In this document: in pieces, positions 6,428 through 16,956 of the stretch
Layout of the letters: every line of letters starts with the position of its first letter
Position numbering within the stretch: position 1 is the stretch's first letter
Source of the DNA: Verrucomicrobiota bacterium
GTDB lineage: Bacteria; Verrucomicrobiota; Verrucomicrobiia; Limisphaerales; UBA9464
Direction: 5' to 3'
DNA: 33,482 nt
NCBI GenBank assembly: GCA_029865985.1
Contig: JARXAF010000058.1
Coordinates: forward strand, 1-33,482
The notes under the pieces: generated by a model
The model's input: the letters and a program-made list of their open reading frames with translations, nothing else
Told to the model about the DNA's origin: nothing
Databases searched by the model: none
Position numbers and translations under genes: made by a program

Positions 6428-7204
<777 letters not shown>

Positions 7205-7300
7205 GCCCACAACCTGCGGATTGCCGAACCATAACGGAAGCTTCAAGCGCAGGTTCCCCGTGCCGCACTTCCGGACGCCTCCCAGAACCTCTGTATGGAA

Positions 7301-9121
7301 TTACTTCGAAACCCCCACCGGTTTGAGCCAAGCCCCCGGAGCAGTGTCTTCGCGAATCCAATCCACGATGAGGCCTATTTCTCGTTCCGAAAGCCGACCA
7401 TCCTTGAGGTAGGAAGGCATTCGGTCGTTGCGCTTGCCATAGAAGTCAGCGTGGGTCGGATCCGATATCAGGCGAACCATCCAAGCCCGCGAACCCCAAC
7501 CAGTCAGGGTCGGCGCGGTCGCATCCTCGTCTGCTTTCCGGAAGGCATGGCAATCGGTGCATCCAAACGTTGTCGAAACATGCACCCGCCCCGCCTCGAT
7601 CTGTGGTGTGCGAGCGGCGAGGCCTGCACGGTTCGCCGGCAAATCGGCCTCGGCCACAACCGCCTCGATCATGGATGCCATCGCGGCCGGATCCTTGGCC
7701 TTCAGAGCCGGGAGCTTCTCCTGGACATAGCGGGCCATTTTGCCCGTTCGGAATTTCGTGCCGCCGTAGTAAAATCCATTGGTGATCTGTTCTGGATTCA
7801 GCAAACCCCGCAACCAGACCGCTGAACCAAAGCCGCGGAGATCCGGAGCGCTCGGCGCTTCGGCGGAAACCACCCCCAATCCATCGTGACCGCCATATCG
7901 ATGGCAGGAGGCACAATGCTGAGCGAAAAGCCGCGGCCCCACGGTCGCCGGATCTTGATTGAGCAATGCCACGGCCCCATCCCGCGGGATGCCACCGTTC
8001 GCCTGGATCAAGGTCACCATCCGGTCGGCGTCCGTTTGCGCCTGAATCACCGCCGCCTGAAACCCTGGGTTGGCCGCATCACTCCGCAACGATTTCACCG
8101 TCAGAAGAACCGCCCCGACGAGAACGACCCCAAGGAAACCCAAGTTGAAGCGGTGACCCAACCGCCAACCCCCGATGAACGGCATGCCAGCGAGAATTCC
8201 CATGACCACTCCGGGTATGACGATCGCCCCCACCAACTCGCCTTGGTGCCCAAACCATTGGGTCAGGAAATCCAGTTTCAGGAACTCAAACAGGAAGAGG
8301 AAATACCACTCCGGGCGCGCCGCGTTGAACGGTTGCGTCGGATCGGCGGGCGCATGCAACTCGGCCCCGTGATGCCGAACGGTCAGGTACACCACCGACG
8401 CCAGAACCGCCAAGCAGGCAACGCCATCCATGAGCACTTGGTCCGGCCAGAAATTCGCCTCGGGCTTGCGGTAAGGCTGCTTGGCGGTGATGCCATGCTT
8501 GCGGAACAAGGCCACGTGCGCCGCGATGGCCGCAATCATCAACCCGGGCAACACCCCGGCATGCAGGGCGAAGAACCGGGTGAGCGTGTGATGGCCGTAG
8601 TCGGAACCACCCACCACGAGTTTCTGAAGAGAGGGACCGACCAGCGGCACGATCCCAATCAGGCTCGTGGCCACCTTCGTCGCACCAAAGCCCTTTTGAT
8701 CCCAAGGGAGCAGATACCCGGTCAGGCCCAATCCCAGCGTGAGCATGAGCAGCACCACACCAAACCAGTAGTTGACCTCGCGTGGCGCCTTGTAGGCTCC
8801 GTCTATGATCACCTGCAGCAAGTGCAACACGAGCAGCACGTGCATGGCCTGCGCGACAAAATGATGCAATCCGCGCAGAAACCATCCGCCCGTCATCTCA
8901 TGCTGGATATAGTACACGCTCTCCCAGGCGGAGTTGGCACTCGGGCTGTAAGCCATCCACAGCACCACACCGGTCAGGATTTGAACCAAGAAACAGAAAC
9001 TCAGCGTGCTGCCCCAAACGTAGCGCCAGCGGGCTCCTCCGGGAATCCGCTCGAAGAGCACCTCATGCAGCAGCCCCTGCATTCCGGTTCGCTGGTCGAT
9101 CCAATCAATCAGCTTCTTCAT
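7301..9121 (-). CDS. Cytochrome b fused to a C-terminal dihaem cytochrome c (bc complex core)
   Basis: This 606-residue membrane subunit of a quinol-oxidising bc complex combines three parts. Residues 1 to about 215 are the cytochrome b N-terminal four-helix part, with haem-ligand histidines at H86, H100, H187 and H202. Residues about 220-345 are the C-terminal membrane part, with the Qo-site motif P270-E-W-Y. From about residue 385 on there are two c-type haem domains, with C403-ASC-H407 and C521-TDC-H525, and likely axial Met at M462 and M568. The histidine spacing (14 and 15) resembles cytochrome b6, but the Cys that binds the extra haem cn in b6 is Val35 here. The ATG overlaps the Rieske stop by four bases, so the two proteins are probably made in step. 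Confidence 0.95.
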   Translation of the reverse strand: MKKLIDWIDQRTGMQGLLHEVLFERIPGGARWRYVWGSTLSFCFLVQILTGVVLWMAYSPSANSAWESVYYIQHEMTGGWFLRGLHHFVAQAMHVLLVLHLLQVIIDGAYKAPREVNYWFGVVLLMLTLGLGLTGYLLPWDQKGFGATKVATSLIGIVPLVGPSLQKLVVGGSDYGHHTLTRFFALHAGVLPGLMIAAIAAHVALFRKHGITAKQPYRKPEANFWPDQVLMDGVACLAVLASVVYLTVRHHGAELHAPADPTQPFNAARPEWYFLFLFEFLKLDFLTQWFGHQGELVGAIVIPGVVMGILAGMPFIGGWRLGHRFNLGFLGVVLVGAVLLTVKSLRSDAANPGFQAAVIQAQTDADRMVTLIQANGGIPRDGAVALLNQDPATVGPRLFAQHCASCHRYGGHDGLGVVSAEAPSAPDLRGFGSAVWLRGLLNPEQITNGFYYGGTKFRTGKMARYVQEKLPALKAKDPAAMASMIEAVVAEADLPANRAGLAARTPQIEAGRVHVSTTFGCTDCHAFRKADEDATAPTLTGWGSRAWMVRLISDPTHADFYGKRNDRMPSYLKDGRLSEREIGLIVDWIREDTAPGAWLKPVGVSK

Positions 9122-9663
9122 GTCAGTGCCACCTTGGCTGGGATGCCGGATCGGAAGTTCTGGAAACGCAACCAGACAGCCTCGCCCCGAACCTCGACCG
9201 TCAGGGTATCCATGGGTCGCGGGCTCGGTGATCGCGGATCGTTGATCGAACCATCCACTGCGAAGGTGCTGTCATGGCAGGGACAGAAAAAGGCACGACG
9301 GTCGGTCTGGTAATCGACGAAACAACCAGCGTGAGGACAGACCGAATGCAATGCTACCACTTGGGCTGGTGCCGTGCGTCGCAGATAGACAACACCGACA
9401 GGCACGGCGGCATCCCGCGTCCAGGCATCGGATTTTCCGGTGACCACGGTGACGCGGACCGGAGTCCCATCGGTAGGCACGCTCGAAAGACTGGCGACCT
9501 GAATCCAATCGCCGGATCCACTGGCCTTGGAGAGCGGATCGAGCCAGGCCACCAGACCCGAAGCCAGCGGCACGCCGACACAGCAGGCCCCGACAGCGCC
9601 TGCCGCTGCCTCCGCGAGGAAACGACGGCGTGGCTGGGCGCCAGAATCTTGAGTTGCATCCAT
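9118..9663 (-). CDS. Rieske iron-sulfur protein of the bc complex
   Basis: This 181-residue membrane-anchored [2Fe-2S] protein takes electrons from quinol at the Qo site of the cytochrome b encoded next to it. The N-terminus carries a Tat-like RRRFL motif at about residues 12-16 followed by a hydrophobic segment to about residue 42. The cluster-binding boxes are C109-P-H111-A-G-C114 and C127-P-C129-H130, giving two Cys and two His ligands plus the usual disulfide pair. The ATG at 9663 is preferred over a TTG at 9684. It overlaps the cytochrome b start by 4 bases. It is the first gene of the long minus-strand run, so a promoter should lie within 9664-9854, although no clear one was found. Confidence 0.95.
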   Translation of the reverse strand: MDATQDSGAQPRRRFLAEAAAGAVGACCVGVPLASGLVAWLDPLSKASGSGDWIQVASLSSVPTDGTPVRVTVVTGKSDAWTRDAAVPVGVVYLRRTAPAQVVALHSVCPHAGCFVDYQTDRRAFFCPCHDSTFAVDGSINDPRSPSPRPMDTLTVEVRGEAVWLRFQNFRSGIPAKVALT

Positions 9664-9854
9664 AAAGAGCCCGCGCTCATCCAATGAATGAGCCGGCGGT
9701 CGCGGACGATGCCCCGGGATTGGGATTTTTCCAGCGTGAAGGCCAACTTTCTTGAAGGCCGCCGATTTGACTCTTGATTTGCCCCAGTGATTGGAGTCTC
9801 TAGCGCCCAGTTCTTTGACGGGCTTGTTCCTTTTCGAAAAAGCCTAAATCAAAA
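9664..9854. other. Divergent intergenic region upstream of the Rieske gene and the cobalamin riboswitch
   Basis: No gene is supported here. The region should hold the promoter of the minus-strand bc-complex operon and that of the plus-strand riboswitch RNA. TTGAC-like hexamers occur on the plus strand near 9768 and 9815, but neither has a convincing -10 box at a normal distance. Confidence 0.5.
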
Positions 9855-10012
9855 CATCGTTGGAAGTGCGGGAACGCCGTGAAAATCGGCGACGGTTGCG
9901 CCACTGTATCAGGCAACAAACCCCCTGGTCGTACACGACAGCCACTGGACGCGAGTCTGGGAAGGCGGGGGCGAGGTTCGAAGCCTGTAGTCAGGATATC
10001 GCGCCAATGATG
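9855..10012 (+). promoter_or_regulatory. Cobalamin (B12) riboswitch aptamer
   Basis: The sequence carries the conserved blocks of the cobalamin riboswitch (Rfam RF00174) in the right order: GGGAA then CGTGAAAATC near 9870-9887, GCCACTGTATC (the B12-box core) at 9899-9909, a second GCCACTGG at about 9941-9948, GGGAAGGC at 9959-9966, and GAAGCC followed by AGTCAGGA around 9980-9996. The closing P1 stem can be drawn between 9855-9863 and 10004-10012, nine pairs including one G-T. The RNA points to the PEP-CTERM gene at 10267 and so to the operon 10267-13254. In known cases the aptamer lowers expression of downstream genes when B12 is plentiful. Confidence 0.94.
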
Positions 10013-10266
10013 CTCGTCAGGTTCCGGCCCTAGGCCAGAACCGCTTCGCCGCAAAGCGAAGGATGAGGCCAGCCACTCCCTGCCTGTATGCCGGGATGGA
10101 AACATTACTGAATGTCTGACGCCTTCATTCCCTGTTTTGCCGGTGGATGGGAGGCGTTTTGCGTTTCAAACATTCAAAACTCCCCTTCCTTCCTCTCGGC
10201 CTGGTCTTCATTGACACACCTTGGCATGCCCCTGAACCAGGCGTGCCATCGCCGTGACCGGAGACC
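10013..10266 (+). promoter_or_regulatory. Long leader between the riboswitch and the first gene, with three hairpins
   Basis: This is the likely expression platform. A stem of ten positions with one mismatch spans 10020-10042, a six-pair hairpin spans 10044-10061, and an eight-pair hairpin (GGCATGCC against GGCGTGCC, one G-T pair) spans 10223-10247, just upstream of the start codon at 10267. None is followed by a T-run, so a classic intrinsic terminator is not visible. A GGAG sequence lies 4 bases before the start codon. Translational control or Rho-dependent control is possible. A small frame starting at 10112 runs into the next gene out of frame and is not supported as a gene. Confidence 0.45.
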
Positions 10267-11145
10267 ATGCACACTGAACGCAACTCGACTGTCCGAGCCG
10301 TTGGAATCCCCGCGTGGGGATCCTTCGCCGTCGGAATGATCCTCGCCAGCAACGCAGCCCTGAGCCTACAGGCCCAATACCCGTCCACTGTGGTGGAGTA
10401 CCAATCGGGAACCAGTTACACTCCCGGCTACACGAACGCCACCGCAGCCATCGGATCGCCCAGCCGCATCACCACAGGAGACTTCGGCGGACCTGTAGAC
10501 CCTTTCGCCCCGCCCTACACGCAGGCTCAACTGGTCAGCATCGGCACCGGCGGTTCGCTCACGCTCCGCTGGGATTCCCCGCTGAAGAATGCCATTGGCA
10601 ACCCCGACGGCCTCGACTTCACGGTCTTCGGCAGTACCGGATTCCTGATGACGAACGACTTCGATGCCAATTGGAGTCCGATCGGTGCACCGGCCACCGA
10701 TGGTTCGCTGTTCAACCCCAACTCCGGGACTCAGAAAATCAGCGTCAGCAGCGACGGCAAGACCTGGTACGTCCTCGATCCCGCCAAAGGCCCGAAACTA
10801 GATCACTACTACCCCACGGATGGATCCGGCGACTTCGGTATTCCGATGAGTGCTTCACTCAAGCCCATCGAGTTCTCCGGTAAGACTCTGGAGCAAATGC
10901 GTGCTCTCTACCGAGGCTCAGCCGGTGGTGCCAGTTTTGATCTCGCCTGGGCCCTCGATGCCAACGGCAAACCCGTGAACCTCACCGAAGCCTCATATCT
11001 CCGCATCGACGTGCTCAGCGGAAAGGTCGACATCGATGGGTTTTCCAGTGTCAACACCGTGCCCGAGCCGACCACCTGGTCCCTGATGGCTTCGGCGATG
11101 GCCGGCATTGTCGTTTGGCACCGGATGTCGCGAAAGCAACCTTGA
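10267..11145 (+). CDS. PEP-CTERM sorting-domain surface protein under the B12 riboswitch
   Basis: This exported protein of 292 residues has a hydrophobic N-terminal signal region (about residues 12-36) and a C-terminal PEP-CTERM tag (VPEPTTWSLMASAMAG, then a short membrane stretch and basic end), the signal cut by exosortase. The middle part contains PGYTNATAAIGSPSR, VSIGTGGSLTLRWDSPL and GLDFTVFGSTGF, which resemble secreted proteins of PVC bacteria called only cell surface protein, with a beta-rich composition. No enzyme motif was seen. It is the first gene after the riboswitch, with a GGAG 4 bases before the ATG. Regulation by B12 suggests a role in B12 capture or in a B12-sparing response, but this is inference. 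Confidence 0.85.
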   Translation: MHTERNSTVRAVGIPAWGSFAVGMILASNAALSLQAQYPSTVVEYQSGTSYTPGYTNATAAIGSPSRITTGDFGGPVDPFAPPYTQAQLVSIGTGGSLTLRWDSPLKNAIGNPDGLDFTVFGSTGFLMTNDFDANWSPIGAPATDGSLFNPNSGTQKISVSSDGKTWYVLDPAKGPKLDHYYPTDGSGDFGIPMSASLKPIEFSGKTLEQMRALYRGSAGGASFDLAWALDANGKPVNLTEASYLRIDVLSGKVDIDGFSSVNTVPEPTTWSLMASAMAGIVVWHRMSRKQP

Positions 11146-11159
11146 GAGGATCCGCACTC

Positions 11160-11519
11160 ATGATTCACACCGGCACGGTTTGCGAAGATCACTGTCCGCT
11201 CTGCGGTCAGGCCAATGCCTGCTGCCGGGCGTTTGGAGCCGACCCAGCCCCGGATCCGTGTTGGTGTGAATCCCTGGTCATTTCGCCGAAGGTGCTCGAT
11301 GGCATTCCAACAGCACTCCAGGGAAAGACCTGTCTCTGTCGGGCCTGCGCCATCGGCGACCAGTGCGGCTCCACCGTTTCTCCCCTAGAAGAAGCGGACA
11401 CCTATTTCACCGAGGATGGACGAATGGTCTTCACCCGTGCCTACCATCTCCGCCGGGGCTACTGTTGCGGCAGTGGTTGCCGCCACTGCCCGTTTGAAAA
11501 AACCAAGTCTCGACCGTGA
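11160..11519 (+). CDS. Cysteine-rich CWC plus DUF5522 protein
   Basis: This small protein of 119 residues has 15 cysteines and no signal peptide. The N-terminal half fits the Cys-rich CWC family (CPLCGQANACC at 12-22, then CWC at 34-36, then CLCRAC at 58-63). The C-terminal part fits DUF5522 (YFTEDGRMVFTRAYHLRRG, then CCGSGCRHCPF at 102-112). Both domains are of unknown function and look metal-binding. The start is the ATG at 11160, with AGAGGA at 11145-11150 placed ideally upstream; this site overlaps the previous stop. The stop overlaps the next gene's GTG start by four bases (GTGA), so the genes should be cotranslated. A longer in-frame start at 11115 lies inside the preceding gene and is unlikely. 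Confidence 0.88.
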   Translation: MIHTGTVCEDHCPLCGQANACCRAFGADPAPDPCWCESLVISPKVLDGIPTALQGKTCLCRACAIGDQCGSTVSPLEEADTYFTEDGRMVFTRAYHLRRGYCCGSGCRHCPFEKTKSRP

Positions 11520-12508
11520 CCACTTTTCTCCAGAAGTGCCGATCCATCGTTTCAGCGGTGATCGGTCTGGCATGCCTGGAAACCCAACTCTCGGGTGACA
11601 CGATCGAAGAGACCTTCACGACGGATCCCACGCTGCGCGGTTGGCGTCCTTGGGGCGATGCATCCCTCTTTCATTGGGACGCCACAGAACAAAGACTCAA
11701 CGTCACCTGGGATTCCGCACGACCCAACAGCTTCTTCGCCCTTCCCCTACCCGGTTCTCTCACGGCCAACGACGACTTCCGCTTCGCCTTCGATCTCACT
11801 CTCGAATCGCATGCGGTCGGCGTTTTGGCGGGTCAGGCGGGCACCTTCCAAATCGCCACAGGCCTGATTCGAAAGAACGACGCGCTGGCCACGAACTACT
11901 CCCGAGGATCGTTCCCCGGTCCCAAGAACACCGTGGAATGGACTTGGTTTGGAGAGGCTGGCGCGGTCTCGGCATCGCTTTCTCCGGTCATGATCCCCTC
12001 CGATGGCCGCCTGCCCTGGGGCTACGCCGACAGCTACGTCACCCTCGAAACAGGCCGCCATTACCGCTTCGAATTGGCTTACTCGACCACCCACCGAACC
12101 GCACGCATGAGCATGCTGAGCGACGGGCAACCCGGACCGCAGCTCACGGACATCGTATTGCCGGCCAATTTCACTCGGTTTCAGGTCGATACCTTCGCCA
12201 TCAGCAACTACTCCGGAGCCGGCCAGAATCCGCTCTATGCCGGATCGGTATTGGCCCGGGGGTGGATCGACAACATCTCGATCACCGTACCAGAGCCTCC
12301 GATCTTGCGCCTTCGGGCCCGCGATGGCGGTGTCAATTTGGATGCGCTGGCCGGCTGGCGCTACACTTTGGAGGCGTCGGGCAATTTGACCGACTGGAGT
12401 ACGGTGGCCGAAACACAGGCCAGCCAGACAGCACCACTCGATCTGTGGGACCCGAGAGATGGGTGGTTCCCAGTCCAGTTCTACCGAGTCGTCGCCATCC
12501 GCCCATGA
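11516..12508 (+). CDS. Secreted beta-rich protein of unknown function
   Basis: This protein of 330 residues starts at a GTG that overlaps the preceding stop. A signal peptide covers about residues 8-27. The main part (about 30-260) looks like a concanavalin/LamG-type beta sandwich: it begins with an ETFTTDPTLRGWRPWGD segment and ends with a GWIDNISITVPEP segment. From about residue 265 it has the C-terminal domain often found in Verrucomicrobial exported proteins, with YTLEASGNLTDWSTVA and a final FYRVVA. A VPEP sequence at about residue 262 is not followed by a membrane segment, so it is not a PEP-CTERM tag. The stop overlaps the next start by four bases (ATGA). No catalytic motif was recognised. 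Confidence 0.8.
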   Translation: MTTFLQKCRSIVSAVIGLACLETQLSGDTIEETFTTDPTLRGWRPWGDASLFHWDATEQRLNVTWDSARPNSFFALPLPGSLTANDDFRFAFDLTLESHAVGVLAGQAGTFQIATGLIRKNDALATNYSRGSFPGPKNTVEWTWFGEAGAVSASLSPVMIPSDGRLPWGYADSYVTLETGRHYRFELAYSTTHRTARMSMLSDGQPGPQLTDIVLPANFTRFQVDTFAISNYSGAGQNPLYAGSVLARGWIDNISITVPEPPILRLRARDGGVNLDALAGWRYTLEASGNLTDWSTVAETQASQTAPLDLWDPRDGWFPVQFYRVVAIRP

Positions 12509-13254
12509 ATCGGACCCGATCCTTGCGCGCGGAATCCCCGATACGGGCATTCACGCTGCTCGAACTTCTCGTGGTCATCGCGGTGATCACCCTCTTGGCC
12601 GCACTCACCCTGCCTGCTTTGGTCCGATCTCGGTCTGCGGCTCAAGCGACCGTCTGCACTTCCAACCTGCGCCAAGTCGGCTTGGCCACCCAACTCTACT
12701 GGGACGACCACAGAGGCATCGCGTTCGTCGAGCGGGGCTCACGCACCAATAACGGTTGGAACTACTGGTTTGGATGGCTGGAAGATGGAGCCGAAGGAGA
12801 ACGCCGATTTGAACCTGCCACTGGACCCCTGTGGCCTTACCTCCAATCTCGCGGCGTCGAGGTTTGTCCGGCTCTCAACCGCGCCAATCCACGCTTCAAG
12901 AGCAAGGCCCGTGGAGCGGCTTTCGGCTACGGCTACAACCTGAGGGTCGGCACCCGGGGCACCTCGGGAGTTCCCATCGCCACATTGCGTTCGCCCGCCG
13001 GATGCGCCGTCTTCGCTGACTGTGCGCAGATCAACGATTTCCAACCCCCCGCCTCACCCGAACATCCGCTGTTGGAGGAGTTTTATTACTTCGACCTCGA
13101 AGGACCGACCGTCCACTTCCGGCACTCGCGTCGTGCCGAAACGTGGTTCGCCGACGGCCATGTGACCGGCACCCTCCCAGCCCCAGACTCCGAGGACTCT
13201 CGAATCCCCGAAGAACACGTCGCCCGCCTGCCCGCCGAACTCATCCTGCCCTAG
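12505..13254 (+). CDS. Prepilin-like protein with H-X9-DG motif, last gene of the B12-riboswitch operon
   Basis: The protein has 249 residues. A 15-residue leader is followed by FTLLELLVVIAVITLLAALT, the type IV prepilin helix. The residue before the cut is Ala15 rather than the usual Gly. HSRRAETWFADG near the C-terminus fits H-X9-DG exactly. The ATG at 12505 overlaps the previous stop (ATGA). The same frame is open far upstream to 11641, but this is only the shadow of the previous gene. It may form a pseudopilus or act as a membrane-anchored minor pilin; no secretion machinery is nearby. Confidence 0.87.
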   Translation: MNRTRSLRAESPIRAFTLLELLVVIAVITLLAALTLPALVRSRSAAQATVCTSNLRQVGLATQLYWDDHRGIAFVERGSRTNNGWNYWFGWLEDGAEGERRFEPATGPLWPYLQSRGVEVCPALNRANPRFKSKARGAAFGYGYNLRVGTRGTSGVPIATLRSPAGCAVFADCAQINDFQPPASPEHPLLEEFYYFDLEGPTVHFRHSRRAETWFADGHVTGTLPAPDSEDSRIPEEHVARLPAELILP

Positions 13255-13344: not shown

Positions 13345-14300
<956 letters not shown>

Positions 14301-14363
14301 AGCATCCCGCCTCGCGGTGTCACCCGGATACGTTCCCAACCTCTGGCTCCGATCAACGGAGGC

Positions 14364-15410
14364 TCAGCAGGTGCCGAAGCGGTACTCGGTGCGACTGGAG
14401 AAAACCTGACCCGGCCGCAACACACACGACGGGAATCCCGGATGGTGAATGGCGTCGGGGAAATTTTGGGTCTCCAGACAAAAACCGCCGTGCTTCGGAA
14501 CGGTCACACCGCCGGTGCAAACCACACCTTCCGGCGTCCGGTTGAAGGTCCACAACTGCACGCCCGGTTGGGTGGTGTGACATTCCATCATGCGCCCATG
14601 GGTGCGTTCAAAGGCCCGTGCGGCCAACCCCAGCGACCCGCCTCCGTGCCGCAGCACGAAATTGTGGTCGTATCCGGGAGGAGTCAGTCCGGTGTTCATT
14701 CCGCGGGCCCCGATCGCGATGGGTCGGGTGAAATCGAGGGCCGTCCCAGCCACCGGCAGGAGCCGACCGGTCGGAATGAGCCCCTCATCCACCTCCGTCG
14801 CCTGATCCGCAGCGATCTCCAGTTCGTGCGACAAAATATCACCGCTGCCCGCGAGGTTGAAGAAGCTGTGATTGGTGAGATTCAGAATCGTCGGAGCATC
14901 GGTCGTGGCCCGGTAATCGATCCGCCACACATCGTCACGGGTCAGCGTATAGGTGACCGTCACCGTCAGCGCTCCGGGATAGCCCTCCTCGCCGTCAGGG
15001 CTGGTGTAGGTCAGGTCCACCGAGACCGCTTCCTCGGTCGTTTGAACGGGACCGGCCGTCCAAAGTTTCTTGTCGAAACCCACCAACCCGCCGTGCAAGT
15101 GGTTCAGGCCGTTGTTGGTGGCCAGCACATAGTCCTTTCCGTCCAAGGTGAACTTCCCCCGGGCAATCCGATTGGCGAAACGGCCGGCGATGCATCCAAA
15201 GAACGGGTGACCTTGAAGATAGCGGGCCAAGGTATCAAACCCCAGAACCACATTCCCCAGCTTGCCGTGACGGTCCCGAGTGTGGAGCTCGGTCACCAAA
15301 ACCCCGTAGTTGGTGAACTTGAGCGTGGTGCCGTTGGGGTTGCGAAAGACGAATCGGTGGGCTTCGCGGCCATCGGGCAGCGTGCCGAAAACGGTGCATT
15401 CGGAGGTCAT
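14364..15410 (-). CDS. galM: Aldose 1-epimerase (mutarotase)
   Basis: This protein of 348 residues interconverts alpha and beta anomers of aldoses such as glucose, galactose or xylose. Conserved features are GRFANRI at 76-82, NHLHGG at 103-108 with catalytic H106, NHSFFNL with the second active His at 181, YDHNF at 247-251 and CLETQNFPD with the catalytic Glu at 313. The start is the ATG at 15410, which gives normal family length; the frame itself extends to 15569 through sequence unlike GalM. It lies downstream of xylA on the same strand but is separated by a clear terminator, so it probably has its own promoter or depends on readthrough. No signal peptide is present. Confidence 0.95.
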   Translation of the reverse strand: MTSECTVFGTLPDGREAHRFVFRNPNGTTLKFTNYGVLVTELHTRDRHGKLGNVVLGFDTLARYLQGHPFFGCIAGRFANRIARGKFTLDGKDYVLATNNGLNHLHGGLVGFDKKLWTAGPVQTTEEAVSVDLTYTSPDGEEGYPGALTVTVTYTLTRDDVWRIDYRATTDAPTILNLTNHSFFNLAGSGDILSHELEIAADQATEVDEGLIPTGRLLPVAGTALDFTRPIAIGARGMNTGLTPPGYDHNFVLRHGGGSLGLAARAFERTHGRMMECHTTQPGVQLWTFNRTPEGVVCTGGVTVPKHGGFCLETQNFPDAIHHPGFPSCVLRPGQVFSSRTEYRFGTC

Positions 15411-15513
15411 GGGATGAATTGCGAAAGGATCGGGGCGGGATAGTGCGGATTCTGTCCATCGAGGTCGACACCTCATCGAACCGACGACTTCAGCCGAGTC
15501 ATCGATCGAGACC

Positions 15514-15551
15514 AAAAAGGCCGGAGCCCTCGTGATGGAGAGACTCCGGCC
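15514..15551 (-). terminator. Intrinsic terminator downstream of xylA
   Basis: On the minus strand GGCCGGAG pairs with CTCCGGCC (eight pairs) around a 17-base loop and is followed at once by TTTTT (15518 down to 15514). It lies 34 bases after the xylA stop and about 100 bases before galM. Confidence 0.78.
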
Positions 15552-15558
15552 CTGTGGC

Positions 15559-15578
15559 TGCCACCTCATCGGGTGGCA
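15559..15578 (-). other. Second hairpin between the xylA stop and its terminator
   Basis: TGCCACC pairs with GGTGGCA around a six-base loop, only a few bases after the xylA stop. It has no T-run of its own. It may stabilise the 3' end of the xylA mRNA. Confidence 0.45.
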
Positions 15579-15584
15579 CGGCGA

Positions 15585-16904
<1,320 letters not shown>

Positions 16905-16956
16905 GATGTTTTGCAAAAAGGACGCGGAAAACTACGCACCACCCCGGACCATGGGA

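Follow-up and report, generated by a model that had tools for sequence, protein, structure and literature searches.

The stretch of DNA analysed here (the window; 33,482 nucleotides, contig JARXAF010000058.1 of assembly GCA_029865985.1, from a Verrucomicrobiota bacterium of the lineage Limisphaerales; UBA9464) contains four tightly packed genes, g1 to g4, all on the forward strand and downstream of a cobalamin riboswitch of family RF00174. This unit was interpreted, with a probability of roughly 0.7, as a B12-repressed operon for the acquisition of vitamin B12, in which g1 would encode a BtuH-like catcher anchored through an exosortase, with the pseudopilin encoded by g4 as its steady partner. 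The interpretation rests on the riboswitch, the gene order behind it and its conservation, a distant similarity between g1 and BtuH, and importer genes in two distantly related units; it draws also on the presence of B12-binding domains in a family without CbiC, on two exosortases in the source genome, and on fusions of g1 with g3 in relatives. The features of the unit are as follows.

9844–10022, forward strand: cobalamin riboswitch aptamer (RF00174, 66.4 bits)
10044–10166, forward strand: candidate expression platform, a terminator-like hairpin with a competing upstream pairing (from folding)
10267–11145, forward strand: g1, exported protein of the PEP-CTERM type bearing a BtuH-like domain, the probable B12 catcher (PEP-CTERM by Pfam; best PDB sequences 7biz and 8blw)
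11160–11519, forward strand, ATG start: g2, Cys-rich CWC and DUF5522 protein (Pfam; gene orders)
11516–12508, forward strand: g3, secreted beta-rich protein with a C-terminal NLTDW...FYRV module (alignment A7; fusions with g1)
12505–13254, forward strand: g4, pseudopilin with a prepilin N-terminus and an H-x9-DG motif (N_methyl; adjacency to g1)

The well-formed cobalamin riboswitch described in the initial annotation was borne out by a covariance-model scan of the window, in which the match covered model positions 1–189 and, at 66.4 bits, exceeded the gathering score of 31.5 bits; the annotated start, at 9855, was 11 bases late. This was the sole RF00174 match in the source genome (216 contigs, 92% complete), and the aptamer itself is of the ordinary cobalamin type. 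Folding of the leader identified a hairpin at 10118–10158 (-21.4 kcal/mol, z = -3.4), followed by the tail UUUUGCGUUU, and a pairing further upstream that competes with it. Together these elements suit transcription termination, and were treated as a candidate platform. Support for a terminator is reduced by the leader being almost unchanging across nine congeners, where none of 72 pairs had changed on both sides and there was no covariation; a simple scan for terminators and promoters reported none in this region.

The packing of the genes was as annotated, with a gap of 14 bases between g1 and g2, and overlaps of GTGA between g2 and g3 and of ATGA between g3 and g4. Pfam matches likewise agreed with the identities given to g1, g2 and g4. 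The PEP-CTERM match in g1 scored 20.7 bits, which is exactly the Pfam cut-off (20.7); two exosortases were present in the source genome (EpsH matches at 155 and 112 bits), so that both marks of an exosortase substrate, the C-terminal motif and an exosortase in the same genome, were found. For g2, matches were obtained to Cys_rich_CWC (41.6 bits) and DUF5522 (69.3 bits), and most of its cysteines were invariant across ten congeners. The prepilin N-terminal methylation motif that defines a pseudopilin was recognised in g4 (PF07963 N_methyl, 22.8 bits versus a cut-off of 21.2; TIGR02532, 21.6 versus 16.3 bits), and its H-x9-DG motif could be read in the sequence. For g3 there was no Pfam family above cut-off, and a profile search of the PDB found no solved relative.

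Scans of the four proteins against Pfam and NCBIfam showed no known B12 protein family. For g1, wider profiles were also compared with the PDB (177,635 sequences in the case of A5): A5 (41 rows), A8 (25 family rows), A1 (10 rows) and A6 (16 distant rows). A5 matched 7biz (E = 7e-4) and chain B of 8blw (E = 2.7e-3), with the next match at 1.3; A8 matched 8blw (E = 7.5e-4), with the next match at 0.32. The only PDB sequences with E below 0.01 were thus BtuH-domain proteins. 7biz is described as BtuH2 of Bacteroides thetaiotaomicron with cyanocobalamin (PMC8941943), while 8BLW is BtuB1G1, in which BtuG1 is extended at its C-terminus by about 250 residues, reported to be homologous to BtuH2 (PMC10404256); the g1 match to 8blw falls within this extension. 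The protein therefore appears weakly homologous to the cobalamin-binding BtuH domain and, as a probable distant relative, is called BtuH-like here. It follows that the annotation was right in finding no known B12 protein at the level of Pfam and NCBIfam, and that 'no recognised cobalamin function' was too strong a description of g1. BtuK was also weighed as a relative of g1 in the light of PMC12751083, and was dropped since the PDB search pointed to BtuH.

Within the family, RF00174 was present in 47 of 50 genomes and in all nine genera, and g1 lay behind a riboswitch in every one of the 47 (37 loci established by gene order, plus ten more). The association of riboswitch and g1 exceeds chance, given that the order was kept in 47/47 riboswitch-positive genomes. 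The full order g1-g2-g3-g4 was seen at 27 of the 37 loci, and the gene set highlighted in the initial annotation does recur behind B12 riboswitches in relatives. A match to g2 was absent from six loci that keep g1, g3 and g4; g4 was absent from three (G036, which lies at a contig end, G046 and G048); and G016, also at a contig end, had g1 alone. At two loci (G003 and G015) g1 and g3 shared a single open frame and appear to be fused, while in G020, G035, G046 and G048 the C-terminus of g1 was the NLTDW...FYRV module, as at the end of g3, and not PEP-CTERM. The flanks of the unit vary between genera. Those in the window (7301–9684 on the reverse strand, and 13845–16916) were named by eye: a cytochrome b carrying haem motifs, a Rieske-type protein, a HIT protein, an aldose epimerase and a xylose isomerase. 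A second riboswitch was found in five family genomes; that of G025 was stronger (about 110 bits) and lay upstream of a class I ribonucleotide reductase pair (L074:6118–10224), and the same gene pair was identified in L072 (G026) by clustering. The contigs L031 and L037, nearly identical or close to the window, were deposited as Akkermansia muciniphila, a label that looks wrong for this family.

A sample of 288 genomes from the phylum was searched for g1, which was found in 17 genomes besides the source genome with the g1 query and in 19 with the 41-row profile. Beyond the family, 16 of the 19 g1 loci were preceded on the same strand by a cobalamin aptamer, which exceeded the gathering score at 13; the sub-threshold cases were L111, L112 and L114 (29–30.6 bits, E up to 0.0015), and L105 was truncated by a contig end. 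At these distant loci, g3 was not found at any of the 19, and g2 was near one, L102. Importer genes occurred in two units. In L110 the order was riboswitch, g1, pseudopilin and a FecCD-ABC fusion, and in L114 it was weak aptamer, pseudopilin, g1, Peripla_BP_2, FecCD and ABC. FecCD systems transport iron and haem too; a role for these importers in B12 transport is suggested because the riboswitch heads the unit.

The aptamer and g1 were separated by a small PEP-CTERM gene in L099, L100, L101 and L106, and by the pseudopilin in L114. Such small genes (about 180–230 aa) adjoin g1 at L099:2523–3224, L100:8851–9450, L101:165–812, L106:5991–6614 and L103:11248–11781. The five resemble one another (alignment A9), and no known relatives were found in Pfam or the PDB; a DUF4430-like (transcobalamin-like) nature was considered for them and was unsupported by either.

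Apart from the riboswitch, the pseudopilin is the steadiest partner of g1 across the phylum. A codirectional pseudopilin stood beside g1 at 18 of the 19 distant loci, the exception being L141, where it was convergent. An automatic count (E below 1e-9) found a pseudopilin in the same direction as g1, and no more than 2.6 kb from it, at 33/37 family and 17/18 distant loci; for comparison, other pilin-like matches numbered 20 in 654 kb (family) and 3 in 262 kb (distant). A second pseudopilin gene in the window (6428–7246, reverse strand; pilin-like match, E = 1.8e-32), near a ProC-like gene named by eye, is unrelated to the riboswitch.

The need for B12 and its supply were surveyed in 49 family genomes, many of them incomplete. 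A B12-binding domain was present in all 49, and at least 33 had such a domain in a frame of 1200 residues or more, a length that we read as the size of MetH. CbiC was found in 0/49, as were the ECF S-component (ECF_trnsprt) and DUF4465. The only CobS match was in G021 (C17:6237–6944), being either a salvage gene or contamination. The Plug domain occurred in 48/49 genomes, with nine in the source genome. FecCD matches were seen in 45/49, of which 32 were above cut-off and the best scored 45.9 bits; four of these were examined, including the best and that of the source genome, and all proved to be ABC-3 permeases at about 220 bits, whereas the true FecCD proteins of L110 and L114 scored 248 and 280 bits. 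The family therefore looks B12-requiring and non-synthesising, because B12-binding domains were found in 49/49 genomes and CbiC in none; it also appears to possess outer-membrane receptors, with no B12 permease recognised (four FecCD matches examined). This raises the question of how B12 is imported in a family that has B12-dependent enzymes and no recognised BtuC or ECF permease.

Under the preferred interpretation, scarcity of B12 would permit the transcript through the riboswitch, repression being by B12 itself. The g1 protein would be exported, and exosortase would sort it to the cell surface, where its BtuH-like domain may capture B12 as BtuH does. The product of g3 could be a second envelope protein cooperating with g1, and the pseudopilin may help to position, export or move the g1 and g3 proteins, or B12. 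A TonB-dependent receptor whose gene lies elsewhere would then receive the vitamin, which would pass inward by an inner-membrane route not recognised here. Any part for g2 is conjectural, and it was assigned no function within the operon model.

Several observations weigh against this interpretation. The similarity of g1 to BtuH is weak (about 22 bits), being the sum of two short stretches in the same order; neither stretch is significant alone. The BtuH-domain proteins were not picked up by A1 or A6, and A8 did not list 7biz. The position aligned to the B12-contacting Asn399 (putative numbering) is Ser in the window g1, and Asn occurs there in 19 of 41 rows (14/16 distant and 5/25 family). 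Besides this, g1 is confined to 20 of the 288 sampled genomes, RF00174 scans found no aptamer upstream of g1 in L107 and L141, of the distant units only L110 and L114 showed importer genes, and there is no outer-membrane receptor gene within the unit.

The weakness of the BtuH score and the changed contact residue would also suit a different explanation, in which the riboswitch governs a general response of the envelope, or of a biofilm, when B12 runs short and g1 shares no more than the BtuH fold, binding some other ligand such as a glycan. PEP-CTERM proteins are usually linked to exopolysaccharide (Haft 2006, cited in PMC12530212), and the BtuH domain is described as modestly similar in structure to the alginate lyase AlyQ (PMC8941943). 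However, the cobalamin riboswitch link at 16/19 distant loci and the importer genes in two units count against it, and PDB matches with E below 0.01 were BtuH-domain proteins only; we regard this explanation as rather improbable. The initial annotation had suggested either B12 capture or cobalt handling at the surface. Capture is now supported by the phylum-wide riboswitch link, the importer genes and the similarity to BtuH. A cobalt-handling system would be centred on g2, which is Cys-rich with mostly invariant cysteines, but the lack of CbiC (0/49) gives no sign of B12 synthesis needing cobalt, and a g2 match is missing from 6/37 family loci that have g1, g3 and g4 and is near only 1/19 distant loci. 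Cobalt handling is thus unsupported, and very unlikely.

A further possibility would extend the B12-acquisition interpretation rather than displace it. Here, g4 would assemble on machinery like that of type II secretion or the type IV pilus, with g1 and g3 as its B12-binding parts, and the device would carry B12 inward or push the catchers out, replacing part of the missing Btu machinery. This is consistent with the codirectional pseudopilin near g1 at 33/37 family and 17/18 distant loci, and with the absence of an ECF S-component (0/49) and the ABC-3 identity of the four FecCD matches examined. Yet genes of the pilin type are widespread in the phylum (PMC13274419 gives 67 homologues for a single genome), G046 and G048 retain g1, g2 and g3 without g4, and L110 and L114 combine the pseudopilin with ordinary importer genes. 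Pseudopilin-driven uptake was accordingly judged unlikely, and it is similarly doubtful that, in Verrucomicrobiota, an exosortase-anchored BtuH-like catcher and a dedicated pseudopilin work jointly, so that machinery resembling a pilus or type II secretion has a share in vitamin uptake in a family that needs B12 and has no recognised B12 permease.

As an operon for B12 acquisition, the unit can be compared with several known systems. The annotation had offered BtuG as an analogue, which resembles the predicted product of g1 in being a surface B12 catcher; the relative found was BtuH, not BtuG, and identity with BtuG was rejected since no propeller family was found in the four proteins, g1 and g3 included (Pfam, NCBIfam). 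DUF4465/BtuJ proteins are described as riboswitch-linked and B12-scavenging, in PVC bacteria among others (PMC13398666); this identity was also rejected, as PF14717 matched neither g1–g4 nor any of the 49 family genomes. The likeness to BtuFCD lies in the Peripla_BP_2, FecCD and ABC genes sharing a unit in L114, and in the FecCD-ABC fusion of L110; unlike BtuFCD, the window operon lacks importer genes, and FecCD matches in the family were weak, the four examined being ABC-3. The PEP-CTERM genes of PMC12530212 lie behind c-di-GMP riboswitches, and the available part of PMC13274419 draws no link between vitamin B12 and pseudopilins. No paper found, in a search that covered few subscription journals or preprints, reported a PEP-CTERM anchor for a BtuH-like catcher, a link to a pseudopilin, or BtuH-like proteins in Verrucomicrobiota.

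The closest likeness is to BtuH2 (7biz) and the H-domain of BtuG1 (8blw), shared in a surface protein under cobalamin riboswitch control (predicted here) and in a distant similarity of the B12-binding domain, over two stretches in the same order. The window g1 differs in having a PEP-CTERM anchor where BtuH has a lipoprotein anchor, in lacking a PKD or propeller domain, and in the Ser at the position of Asn399, while its unit is without btuB and has a pseudopilin partner. BtuH-type catchers are characterised in gut Bacteroidetes, and the BtuH-like domain would now extend to Verrucomicrobiota, where the catcher appears to be a new variant with another anchor. The pseudopilin is an unexpected steady partner and the oddest part of the unit, and the operon supplies the first genes for the question of B12 import in this family.

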